This document shows, piece after piece, positions 28,184-41,724 of a stretch of 41,916 nucleotides of DNA. Position numbers and translations under genes: made by a program. Source of the DNA: a virus; IMG/VR virus record IMGVR_UViG_3300024262_000006, positions 1-41,916 of that record; one strand, written 5' to 3'. Each line of letters opens with the position of its first letter. The first letter of the stretch is position 1. Under the pieces are notes generated by a model that had not been told where the DNA came from, did no database searches, and worked only from the letters and a program-made list of their open reading frames with translations.

Positions 28184-29226
28184 CCTAATGTCAGTTGAAT
28201 TATACTTGGGTCAGCAAACTGATCGCGTAAACAATCAATCTCCTTTTTAAATGTCTCGACAAGACCAACGGTATAAGGTAGCTCATTACTTAACTTGTTG
28301 CCATTTAATTCCAACAATGCCTCGCCCTTAGAAACCCTCTCCAAACGGTTTGAACGACTGCTCGTGGCAATCTCATTCAATACCCTTACCCCAACACCAA
28401 GTTGAAGTGCCTTTGAAAAGGAATTTTCATTGTTGCGAATTACTGTCGTGAAATCATAAGTGGAATTGATCTGGAAGTTTAACCCGAAAGTCTCACTCAC
28501 ATATTCAATGTCCTCAATGTCAAACAAAGTTTCCGCATTCCAACCTGATACCTTTATCGAGCGAATACCTAAACAGTTAAATACCGCCGCCTCATTTGAC
28601 AGCTCATACGCCCTGTTTAAACCCTTCGGGGATAATCCGCTTGTCAGATACCCGATATAGAAATGACCGCCATTATACTCGTTTAAATGCTTGAGTACCC
28701 AAGTGCAAGCGTTAGATACTGCCGTGTTGGCCGTTGTGTCTAATTCTAGACTATCAATCAAGGCATTTTTAGAACTGTGGAACAACAAGAGCTTGACGCC
28801 TCCCGTGGTTGTTTCATCAAATTCAGCAAACACCTGTTTGACAAGTGCCTGAATAGTAATGTCCATTACGGGAGTAATCTCATACCCTACAAAATCCCCT
28901 TCATTATCCAAAAAAGAACCCCAATTATCAGGGTAAGGGTAGAGCATCCTACTCTCAATTATTTCCTCATGCCTAAAAACTGAACGGGCAATATCCTTCA
29001 ACACATCTTTTGAAATGTTCTTCAAAAAAGTATTGAATTCCGCTCCGCTCATTTCCTTGTCCGACTGAACATCATTGAGTATCTCGGGAGTAATCAAGCC
29101 GCTGGCGCCTTGAAAATACTTACCCGATCGACTCGCTAAATTAGCCGCATCAATAGTCAAACTTGAATTAGTGGTTTGTCTCCACCCCACTAAGCCCACA
29201 GCAATATCATCCAGCGTTGCACTCAT
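28180..29226 (-). CDS. Virion structural protein, 348 aa (function not recognised)
   Basis: MSATLDDIAVGLVGWRQTTNSS... mixes helical parts (IQALVKQVFAEFD, AVSNACTWVLKHLNEYN) with beta parts. No motif recognised. It lies between the secreted protein after the capsid gene and the connector-like gene, with a 4 bp ATGA overlap, so it probably belongs to the head-tail interface. Confidence 0.55.
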   Translation of the reverse strand: MSATLDDIAVGLVGWRQTTNSSLTIDAANLASRSGKYFQGASGLITPEILNDVQSDKEMSGAEFNTFLKNISKDVLKDIARSVFRHEEIIESRMLYPYPDNWGSFLDNEGDFVGYEITPVMDITIQALVKQVFAEFDETTTGGVKLLLFHSSKNALIDSLELDTTANTAVSNACTWVLKHLNEYNGGHFYIGYLTSGLSPKGLNRAYELSNEAAVFNCLGIRSIKVSGWNAETLFDIEDIEYVSETFGLNFQINSTYDFTTVIRNNENSFSKALQLGVGVRVLNEIATSSRSNRLERVSKGEALLELNGNKLSNELPYTVGLVETFKKEIDCLRDQFADPSIIQLTLG

Positions 29227-34007: not shown

Positions 34008-34387
34008 TTATGGTGTTAGTTTGTGAAAATAATCTCCGAGTTCATCTACTTGGCAAAGCACATTATCTTTTTGGTTTTCATAAGACCAATTACAGCCGTT
34101 GATTATCTCGCCTAAGCAATTCAAATATATCTCTGTATCGTTGAAACCCTTTGAAGTTTGGCATACGCTAAAAATGCCTCGATACTATCCACAGCTAAAC
34201 TTGGTTCCCCTCCTGTGAAAGTTACCGCACCTATGTGTTCCACTTGATTCAGTAAACTGCACATGAACTTCATACTCATGTCCAGCTTTTCAGTTTCTCC
34301 CCTAAGGCAATGGTCGCATGACATATTGCATCGCCTCGTGACTTCTATCACTAAATTGCTTAGGTTAATTAATCCCTTATCCTTCAT
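34008..34387 (-). pseudogene. Radical SAM gene with internal deletion and frameshift
   Basis: The 5' part (34387-34121) encodes 88 aa with IEVTRRCNMSCDHCLRGE (the CX3CX2C iron-sulfur motif) and TFTGGEPS (SAM-binding). It then shifts into an early stop. In another frame the sequence continues as DTEIYLNCLGEIINGCNWSYENQ to TAA at 34008-34010, like the end of full-length phage radical SAM proteins. No ATG lies in that frame. So about 150 middle residues seem deleted and the ends are out of frame. The catalytic barrel would be incomplete. Confidence 0.65.
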
Positions 34388-35354: not shown

Positions 35355-36767
35355 TTATTTAAGATAGTAGTGAGTTGCATAGCCTAATAAGTCCACATAC
35401 TCGTCGTGAGGTTCGCCGGGGAACCCACATATCTGGTCAACAAACTCTCTGTTCCAGTTACCGTTTATCAAATGAACACGATCAGCCTCTACCCGTGGGG
35501 CGGCAGCATTAATCCTACCCTCCTTGCCTGCTTGCACTAATCGGCCAACAATCTTTAAGACATCATAGTTCGTTAGCTGTCTAAGCATTTGGATAATAGA
35601 ATAACCGGATGCCTTAGGTTCAATAAATATCCTCCCAGCCATGTTGAAGCCGTGTTCCTCAACATACTTTGGTATGAATTTCAATAACTCTGGTAGGCCC
35701 ATGAATACGCTCTTTGCGTGTTTGATTATCACTCGCCTTGTGCGTGGGTCAAACCCTGATACCATTAATCCCGTTGGGTCGTTCTTTGTTGATTCTGTAT
35801 AGGCTCCATCAACCCATAAATCCCAAATAATATCTGGTGCATCGTCTGTATATCCGAACCATTCTTCTTTCACTTTGTTTCCGCCTTCAGGAATAGGGTA
35901 TTGCCCATACTGCCCTGCAAAGGCATAACTACCTAAATCAATATGCTGTTGGCTTAAGATTTTTCTGCTCGCTCTCGTAGGGTCAAGCAAACCATTTTTA
36001 TAGTACTTCTCAACTTCTGGTGGTTTGACGTGCTCACTTATTTCCGCAGGAAGGCAAATATGGAATATCTCTTTGCCTACTTTTTTTAAGTCATGCCCTG
36101 TCGTGTCGTCCTGATGAAGTCTTTGCATAACTGTAACCGTGGGTGTTCCGTCTTTGTTTTTCTTCCTACTGGGTAATGTTCTATCGTTGTACCTGTGTGC
36201 TCTTAGACGCTTTGCAGGGCTCTCCGCTTGTTCAGCACTCAATGGGTCGTCTCGGATGATTAAGTGTGCGTGCTTACCTGTAACCGTTCCTCCTGTGGAC
36301 GTTGCATAGTAGAATCCACCATAATTATTTTGCCAATTCTTTTCTGTGTCTTTCGTTAGGTGTAAGGCTGAACCATGGCGAGCAGCGATATAATAATTAA
36401 ATATTTGGAAATCCTCACTTGCAATGATGTTCTTCGCTCTTAAACTGTGGTCTGAACTTATTCCATCAGAGTAGGAAGTAATAATTGTGCAGATACTAGG
36501 GTCATGCAACCACAACCAAACGGGGAATGCCTGTGTTACTAAACTTGATTTCGTCATGCCCGGCGGTATGTTGATAATCATATCAAACGGTGCTGGCTCT
36601 CTGTCAATAATAAACGAACCAAGATACTGCAACTGGTCTGCTAAGTAACCTATATGCCAATTCCAATGCAATGGCTCTTGGCTTAGAATACTCCATGCCC
36701 ACTCAAAAAATACACGGTAATATCGTGCCGCTTTATTTACGTCTGCTATTAGATCGCTTGATGACAT
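35355..36767 (-). CDS. Terminase large subunit, 470 aa
   Basis: Packaging motor and headful or site-specific nuclease. The ATPase part has a Walker A variant NIPPGMTKSS (residues 66-75) and Walker B LIIRDDP (169-175). The RNase H-like nuclease part has WVDGAYT (D320), IFIEPKASG (E383) and EYVDLLGYA (D459), so all acidic positions are present. Length fits the family. It overlaps the small subunit by 35 bp. The packaging mode cannot be told from this sequence. Confidence 0.9.
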   Translation of the reverse strand: MSSSDLIADVNKAARYYRVFFEWAWSILSQEPLHWNWHIGYLADQLQYLGSFIIDREPAPFDMIINIPPGMTKSSLVTQAFPVWLWLHDPSICTIITSYSDGISSDHSLRAKNIIASEDFQIFNYYIAARHGSALHLTKDTEKNWQNNYGGFYYATSTGGTVTGKHAHLIIRDDPLSAEQAESPAKRLRAHRYNDRTLPSRKKNKDGTPTVTVMQRLHQDDTTGHDLKKVGKEIFHICLPAEISEHVKPPEVEKYYKNGLLDPTRASRKILSQQHIDLGSYAFAGQYGQYPIPEGGNKVKEEWFGYTDDAPDIIWDLWVDGAYTESTKNDPTGLMVSGFDPRTRRVIIKHAKSVFMGLPELLKFIPKYVEEHGFNMAGRIFIEPKASGYSIIQMLRQLTNYDVLKIVGRLVQAGKEGRINAAAPRVEADRVHLINGNWNREFVDQICGFPGEPHDEYVDLLGYATHYYLK

Positions 36768-37167
36768 CCCTTAGACGTTTGCCTGAAAATTCCTTATGAT
36801 CCATATCTTCAAACGGGTTGCCTTGAAGTTGTACGGTCTGCGGTACCTTGCCGTCCATCCTGTCTACAATCTTCTCGAATGCTTGAACATTGCCTTTTGC
36901 CGCTTTGTTGATTATGCTTATGGCAATGATTTGATAATTTGGTAAACGAACACGGCAATTCTGAATAACCGTTCCAGTTGGCTTGCCTTCCTCGTCCGTG
37001 ACTTCAACATTCTTTAAGTTCATGTAACCATCATTCTCAATGATCTCGCGAAGTGCCACAGTCATGCCCGTATAACGTGGCGTGCCGGGCGGTCTACCTG
37101 ACGGATTGCCGCTTTGACCTGGCCCGTATTGATAGTCCTTTAGTTGCTCTGCTGTTCCTCCTGCCAT
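36733..37167 (-). CDS. Terminase small subunit, 144 aa
   Basis: GPGQSGNPSGRPPGTPRYTG (residues about 15-34) is the Gly/Pro-rich N-terminal motif of a known phage DNA-packaging family, followed by helical parts (YQIIAISIINKAAKGNVQAFE) and a basic end. It lies directly before and overlapping the large subunit. It would recognise the packaging site. First gene after the promoter candidate at 37190. Confidence 0.8.
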   Translation of the reverse strand: MAGGTAEQLKDYQYGPGQSGNPSGRPPGTPRYTGMTVALREIIENDGYMNLKNVEVTDEEGKPTGTVIQNCRVRLPNYQIIAISIINKAAKGNVQAFEKIVDRMDGKVPQTVQLQGNPFEDMDHKEFSGKRLRDVIKRSNSRRK

Positions 37168-37238: not shown

Positions 37239-37979
37239 TTAAATCTTTTCGCCTTTTATCCACTTAGTAATTAAATGATGTCTGTCCATTTCATAGGTTT
37301 TCTCTAATTGGTCTAGACGTTCTTTTACTTTGATGTGTAGTTTCACGGACAATACTATTTCAGTGGTTTCCGTCAGGTCTTCCGTGTTTTCAAACTGCTC
37401 CCAATCGAAGTCAAGTAATGCACTCATTTCCTCTATTTCTGTGACGGAATAGGGCATTGTCGTACTCAAGTCGTCCATGTTGAATTGCTCGGTTAACTGC
37501 TTAATGGTTTCAGCCAGTTTAATTGTGTTGGATTTAAACCTCGTTTCATTGGTTTCAATTGCTATTCTCATGGCTTGCTCTTGGGTTATTTCACCAAAAT
37601 TATAGCACATGACTTCTTTGATTTTTAACTCCCTGAAACTATCCAATCGGTGGTTCCCGTTAACGACCTCGAACTTATCTCCAAGCTGACGAATGATTAT
37701 GTTTTCAACCTGTCCGTTCCTTCTAATGTTCTCGGTTAACTTGACGGCCTCGTTGGTGAGTTGCAAGGTAGGCTCTCCTCCTGTCCAAACAATCCACCTT
37801 GATTTATAGGGTTTGATTTGCTTAAGGATTTCCGGCAATGTCATTTCCTTACCCTTTTCCCAATCCGTATCACAAAACCAACAATTCCTATTGCAATCAC
37901 TCAAGCGGATAAAAATACTTGCCTCTCCCGATCTTCCTCCCTCGCCCTGTATAGAGTAGAATATGTCATTAACTTTCAT
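37239..37979 (-). CDS. QueE-like N-terminal half fused to ParB-like domain
   Basis: 246 aa. Residues 1-80 are QueE (7-carboxy-7-deazaguanine synthase, a radical SAM enzyme): IFYSIQGEGGRSGEASIFIR, the cluster motif CNRNCWFC (C29, C33, C36), and IVWTGGEPTLQLT. Here QueE normally goes on for over 100 residues. Instead a ParB-like domain follows: ENIRRNGQVENIIIRQLGDK, VVNGNHRLDSF (residues 106-115), then AIETNETRFKSNTIKLAE and a helical end. The join is in frame. With half a barrel the QueE activity is probably lost; the cluster may be kept. ParB-like proteins near terminase genes are common. Overlaps QueD by 11 bp. Confidence 0.8.
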   Translation of the reverse strand: MKVNDIFYSIQGEGGRSGEASIFIRLSDCNRNCWFCDTDWEKGKEMTLPEILKQIKPYKSRWIVWTGGEPTLQLTNEAVKLTENIRRNGQVENIIIRQLGDKFEVVNGNHRLDSFRELKIKEVMCYNFGEITQEQAMRIAIETNETRFKSNTIKLAETIKQLTEQFNMDDLSTTMPYSVTEIEEMSALLDFDWEQFENTEDLTETTEIVLSVKLHIKVKERLDQLEKTYEMDRHHLITKWIKGEKI

Positions 37980-38313
37980 CCGTTGTGTAGATTGCTGTAT
38001 TATTTTCTGATTCTTCTACCTCTACCTTAAAGCACCCATCTATCTGATTGCAAATCCAGTGAGCGATATTCTCTGCCGTAGGGTTAAACTCAAACAGGTC
38101 ATTCATGTTGCGGTGGTCTAACTTGCCGTGAACGATTCTCTTGATTTCAGCAAAATCTATCACCATGCCATTGTCGTTCAACTTCCTTGTTCTCACATAG
38201 ACCGTGATCTTCCAGTTATGACCATGGAGTCTTTGGCATGGACTTTCATAATCCAATGTCAAACTGTGGCTCCCTGCAACTTCTAATGTCTTTTTTGCTA
38301 TCCAATATTCCAT
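37969..38313 (-). CDS. queD: QueD, 6-carboxy-5,6,7,8-tetrahydropterin synthase
   Basis: 114 aa, full family length. Zinc ligands H16 (GSHSL), H30 and H32 (RLHGHN); catalytic Cys C26 (SPCQRLHG); GMVIDFAEIK; LDHRNMND with D66/H67; and VEVEESENN with E101. All key residues are present, so the enzyme should be active, turning dihydroneopterin triphosphate into carboxy-tetrahydropterin, the second step toward preQ0. No FolE, QueC or DpdA-like gene was found, so the product would feed the host pathway. Coupled to the QueE-ParB gene. Confidence 0.9.
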   Translation of the reverse strand: MEYWIAKKTLEVAGSHSLTLDYESPCQRLHGHNWKITVYVRTRKLNDNGMVIDFAEIKRIVHGKLDHRNMNDLFEFNPTAENIAHWICNQIDGCFKVEVEESENNTAIYTTDES

Positions 38314-41394: not shown

Positions 41395-41631
41395 TTATAC
41401 ACAATTAGCCATCACACACTCTCTAAAGTATTTCAATACACCTACTCTATTTGAGATGCTGTTTTCATCGACATCCCAAATGCTAACCTCCATATCGAAT
41501 ATATACTCATATCCATCTTTGTCTTTATATTCAATCTCGTAGGTATTCCAATCAAAATTTGGTTTACTGTGTTCGTATTTAACCAATTCAAATCCTAACT
41601 CTTTAAGTATTGCAATAAATTTCTTTTTCAT
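41395..41631 (-). CDS. Hypothetical protein, 78 aa, first gene after repeat A
   Basis: The frame can extend to a TTG at 41646, but ATG at 41631 follows a GGGAGGG ribosome site. MKKKFIAILKELGFELVKYE..., acidic and aromatic in the middle (IEYKDKDGYEYIFDMEVSIWD), ending FRECVMANCV. No family recognised. Its first 15 codons and leader are duplicated at 41790-41916. Confidence 0.65.
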   Translation of the reverse strand: MKKKFIAILKELGFELVKYEHSKPNFDWNTYEIEYKDKDGYEYIFDMEVSIWDVDENSISNRVGVLKYFRECVMANCV

Positions 41632-41724
41632 TTTACCCTCCCGCAATAAAAGCGCATAACAACAGCTATATTTAATAGCGGTTTTGGTGCTATGCGCAAG
41701 GTTTATAATTATATTTTACTGTAT
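41587..41724. repeat. Direct repeat A (second copy, 138 bp)
   Basis: Bases 41587-41713 (127 bp) equal 41790-41916 exactly, and 41603-41724 equal 1-122. Contains leader hairpin, ribosome site and the first 15 codons of the gene at 41395-41631. Confidence 0.9.

Follow-up and report, generated by a model that had tools for sequence, protein, structure and literature searches.

The window analyzed here comprises the 41,916 nt of the IMG/VR virus record IMGVR_UViG_3300024262_000006 and contains a reading frame that begins as QueE (7-carboxy-7-deazaguanine synthase) and ends as a ParB-like protein, which raises the question whether this phage encodes a new type of fusion protein or whether the hybrid frame is the remnant of a deletion. 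We assume that an illegitimate deletion recently occurred in the phage genome and left this frame as its scar, and assign a probability of roughly 70% to this reading.

Two truncated domains in one open reading frame

The hybrid frame and its neighbors are located on the minus strand:

37969..38313 (-): queD, intact (Pfam PTPS, 5.3e-28), 11-nt overlap with the queE start
37239-37979 (-): queE::parB fusion ORF, 246 codons open, 246 aa
37743..37979 (-): 5' part of queE, codons 1-79, with start, CX3CX2C iron-sulfur motif and GGEP
37239..37742 (-): parB-like 3' part (phrog_723), GNHR and NETRF kept
37728..37750 (-): putative deletion junction inside the AVKLTEN codons, exact base indeterminable
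36733..37167 (-): putative terminase small subunit TerS (DUF5681; Pfam 1.6e-12), precedes terL
35355..36767 (-): terminase large subunit TerL (phrog_38, 1.3e-75)

A comparison with PHROGs assigned residues 1-86 of the fusion ORF to QueE-like radical SAM proteins (phrog_2076, 8.5e-16) and residues 80-228 to ParB-like proteins (phrog_723, 1.5e-15), and with Pfam Radical_SAM scored over and ParB_N slightly under the cut-off. The uninterrupted 246 codons and these matches bear out the original prediction of half a QueE, with iron-sulfur motif and GGEP, that runs into a ParB-like domain. The proposed neighborhood was confirmed as well: QueD, upstream of the fusion, carries its catalytic residues (C-x3-HGH, LDHRNMN, NPTAEN and the C-terminal E), and TerS and TerL follow directly downstream in the order queD-[queE::parB]-terS-terL.

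Residues 1-79 of the hybrid represent the N-terminal half of QueE and residues 80-246 the ParB-like protein; the similarity to QueE stops around residue 79-80 and the similarity to ParB starts at 80. The QueE half is 60-66% identical to the best intact QueE proteins of other viral contigs and retains every family-invariant residue up to Q73, including C29, C33, C36 and GGEP (67-70). Unlike QueE, the fusion does not extend into the second half of the barrel and is devoid of all motifs beyond about residue 80, namely the E of ETNG, SPK and the C-terminal H/K, which correspond to the invariant or nearly invariant alignment columns E92, S109-P110-K111, S180-P181, H215 and K227; identical letters in the ParB part at such columns are coincidences of the alignment. 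The ParB part shares up to 67% identity with full-length ParB-like proteins of other phages and resembles the phrog_723 proteins in the GNHR and NETRF core and the region after it. In contrast to these proteins, its first 35-45 residues or so are missing and the match begins at profile position 38, at the putative deletion cut, and neither the fusion nor any other part of the window contains the N-terminal strand or the invariant KADWNYK. As judged from what is known of radical-SAM barrels and the ParB fold, the cut runs through the fold of each domain.

An 11-nt repeat, AGTTAACCGAG, is located at the junction (37731-37741) and again 243 nt downstream (37488-37498), with both copies inside the ParB part. 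This repeat may be due to chance, as it arises from KLTE/QLTE codons.

Among the ORFs examined, the fusion is found in the window only

To see how often both domains occur in one ORF, we scanned the viral contig collection (IMG/VR) with the fusion, the ParB alignment and the QueE alignment, which yielded about 180 loci; the terminase, radical-SAM and genome loci were added to this set for a profile search. This search identified 147 QueE ORFs and 118 ParB ORFs, window included, and only the ORF of the window contained both. The other QueE ORFs mostly match the whole family profile, and the partial matches are explained by contig ends or by longer QueE-like radical-SAM proteins; among the ParB ORFs, the one of the window is the only one flagged as lacking its start. 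No QueE-ParB fusion was present among the listed matches from the 50,697 phage records searched or among the listed plasmids at the sensitivity used, and the 20-mer spanning the junction does not occur in any other IMG/VR contig. The prokaryote genomes searched with the ParB part yielded one ParB-methyltransferase homologue, which is not fused to QueE, and the papers found in the open-access literature, in the parts available, contain no description of a QueE-ParB protein. The same domain order in independent genomes, which characterizes an established fusion family, was thus not found.

The methyltransferase homologue originates from an Ignavibacteria MAG (L125:4824-6248), where a ParB domain of the same type is fused to an apparent DNA methyltransferase domain directly upstream of terminase-like genes.

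These results have to be considered together with the possibility that the hybrid is a new functional protein, in which the QueE-derived iron-sulfur N-terminus replaces that of ParB and which acts as a redox- or SAM-responsive ParB-like factor in modification or packaging. The open frame, the intact iron-sulfur cysteines, GGEP, GNHR and NETRF and the normal branch lengths of both halves would fit such a protein, but none of the other related ORFs examined is fused, the break falls within the fold of each half with loss of invariant motifs, and the contig does not encode the preQ0 and transglycosylase functions to be served by such a protein. We therefore regard this explanation as very unlikely. 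For the same reasons, and since a simple deletion explains the join, the original proposal of a sensor through which a deazaguanine cofactor is coupled to the binding or packaging of DNA finds no support.

Gene order in related contigs points to a deletion

In many IMG/VR contigs the corresponding functions are encoded by separate genes on one strand in the order queD-queE-folE-(queC, queF)-x-parB-(terS)-terL (for example L002, L016, L126, L128, L147 and L235), and gene x before parB encodes a DpdA-type transglycosylase, as phrog_887 was matched by all nine copies tested. We found 59 contigs with queE upstream of parB on one strand, some of which are overlapping records of one contig or nearly identical contigs and hence not independent, and the DNA between the two breakpoints amounts to 494-5357 nt with a median of 2819 nt. 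The window shares with these relatives queD, the start of queE, the end of the parB-like gene and the adjoining terminase genes, but it lacks folE, queC, the DpdA-type transglycosylase gene, about 60% of queE and the start of parB. Nothing convincing was detected elsewhere in the window for the C-terminal half of QueE, the N-terminal part of ParB, FolE, QueC or the transglycosylase of the relatives, and QueD is the only cassette gene left intact. A rearrangement was ruled out, as the missing halves are not located elsewhere in the contig.

The gene order of the relatives in combination with the missing stretch makes one deletion the simplest account. The ancestor would have carried the cassette queD-queE-folE-(queC)-dpdA-type TGT-parB upstream of terS-terL, and a single deletion of roughly 2-4 kb would have removed the last 115 or so codons of queE, the genes in between and the first 35-45 codons or so of parB. 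The frame would have been left open by a one-in-three chance, so that translation of the chimera would start at the queE start site and yield a product without the second half of the radical-SAM barrel and without the N-terminal part of the ParB fold, and QueD would remain as an orphan and the phage could no longer produce 7-deazaguanine DNA by its own route. Some points speak against a deletion. The intact cassette is known only across a large distance, as the search retrieved no close relative of the virus that carries it and the closest TerL relative is only 42% identical. In addition, the open frame and the position of the junction in a predicted helix-like stretch of both parents would match a selected fusion too.

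A different arrangement was observed at L176:6686-8462, where the order is queD-queE-parB-terL and queE immediately precedes parB with neither folE nor a transglycosylase gene between them. Based on this compact order, the lost stretch could be far shorter than 2-4 kb.

A second deletion in a radical-SAM gene

Downstream of the terminase genes, the window contains a second radical-SAM ORF, which the original prediction had overlooked and which is likewise shortened by a deletion:

34121..34387 (-): second radical-SAM gene, N-terminal part, 88 aa, frame lost about 12-20 codons past GGEP
34011..34148 (-): second radical-SAM gene, C-terminal tail (GFNDTEIYLNCLGEIINGCNWSY...), in another frame

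Intact relatives of this gene encode about 220-260 aa. The N-terminal part matches residues 3-82 of an intact 241-aa relative in L114 (4.8e-18) and the tail matches residues 178-223 of the same protein (54% identity, E 4e-12), which means that about 95-100 codons are gone between them. The C-terminal motif of the relatives, YLNC-x-G-x-II-x-GC-x-W-S-Y, is located immediately downstream of the 34121-34387 ORF in the other frame, and the tail is free of stops over 46 codons, a property shared by only 2.1% of the out-of-frame 46-codon windows of this contig. The short ORF does not result from a sequencing frameshift, which would affect one or two bases, whereas about 100 codons are lost here. The break and the one in queE are of the same form, and both occur shortly past GGEP. 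As this deletion is out of frame, selection for a fusion cannot account for its product, and a dead product of the same process is a further argument against a functional QueE-ParB protein.

Recent deletions in the virus or chimeric molecules

Both remnants of the second radical-SAM gene and both fused halves keep their family consensus. Root-to-tip distances of the QueE half, the ParB part, the two parts of the second radical-SAM gene and QueD do not exceed the median of their relatives, and the terminal branches of these five segments are near the median, with the tree of the second radical-SAM tail comprising only four sequences. Undecayed remnants with ordinary branch lengths indicate that both events are recent or that the molecules were chimeric. 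The original second option, a decaying QueE with a frame that happened to stay open, comes close to these findings.

Alternatively, the join may be absent from the virus, with chimeric molecules formed during amplification, library preparation or assembly that skipped the queE-parB stretch and, in the second radical-SAM gene, part of the sequence. Such an origin would be in line with the presence of two deletions in the same contig, each flanked by undecayed remnants, and with a junction 20-mer that occurs in no other IMG/VR contig, and a few shared bases at the joins might be enough. On the other hand, no long repeat that could mislead the assembler was seen at either junction, which speaks against an assembly collapse: within 60-nt stretches surrounding each junction, a single 12-mer recurs in the contig, namely AGGCATTTTTAG from the second junction, with its other copy on the opposite strand at 28761. 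Furthermore, random chimeras should also break large structural genes, but terminase, portal, tape-measure and the other recognizable structural and replication genes look whole. Two deletions in accessory genes next to whole structural and replication genes are what is expected if selection filtered deletions in a living phage. Taken together, we consider an artefact unlikely. The deletion, which is indicated by the gene order of the relatives, the missing parts, the lack of recurrence and the second deletion, probably occurred in the virus itself rather than during library preparation or assembly.

An identical 111-nt repeat is common to both contig ends (1-111, 41790-41916), and a further copy at 41587-41713 shares 127 nt with the right end. 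Small paralogous genes (MKKKFIAILKELGFE...) start at these copies, and the repeat may mark a site where assembly stopped rather than a closed genome. Due to the extra copy the contig is perhaps not closed, and the lost genes could lie outside of it.

Consequences for 7-deazaguanine modification

With invariant motifs missing in both halves (SPK and the C-terminal H/K of QueE, KADWNYK of ParB), the chimera most likely does neither job, i.e., neither synthesizes 7-carboxy-7-deazaguanine nor helps in base insertion, and we infer a loss of function from these motifs. As QueD is the sole intact gene of the pathway on the contig, the phage has probably lost the 7-deazaguanine modification, unless host enzymes supply the missing steps. 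It is very unlikely that the chimera is expressed and selected as a regulator or DNA-binding factor in which a QueE-derived iron-sulfur cap sits on a ParB core, in a phage that no longer makes 7-deazaguanine itself. As a fusion, the hybrid gene is of little importance, and it illustrates how easily the scar of a deletion passes for a novel arrangement of domains. The locus is also a further example of a phage, or phage variant, in which a DNA-modification cassette next to the terminase genes has lost its core.

Phage cassettes for 7-deazaguanine DNA modification have been described with FolE, QueD, QueE, QueC and DpdA (PMC6884629), and a ParB-like DpdB neighbor was noted in mycobacteriophage CRB2 (PMC6392294); DpdB is described as ParB-like. 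Based on its genomic position, the ParB-like gene of the window would correspond to DpdB. In uncultured phages, the widespread order queD-queE-folE-queC-DpdA-type TGT-ParB-terminase indicates a close tie between the ParB-like protein and the transglycosylase. Two cassettes additionally contain a glycosyltransferase-like gene within the folE-dpdA stretch (L163:2892-3833, called by a weak phrog_4356 match, and L183:3256-4239, called by inspection alone); its product might glycosylate the modified base.
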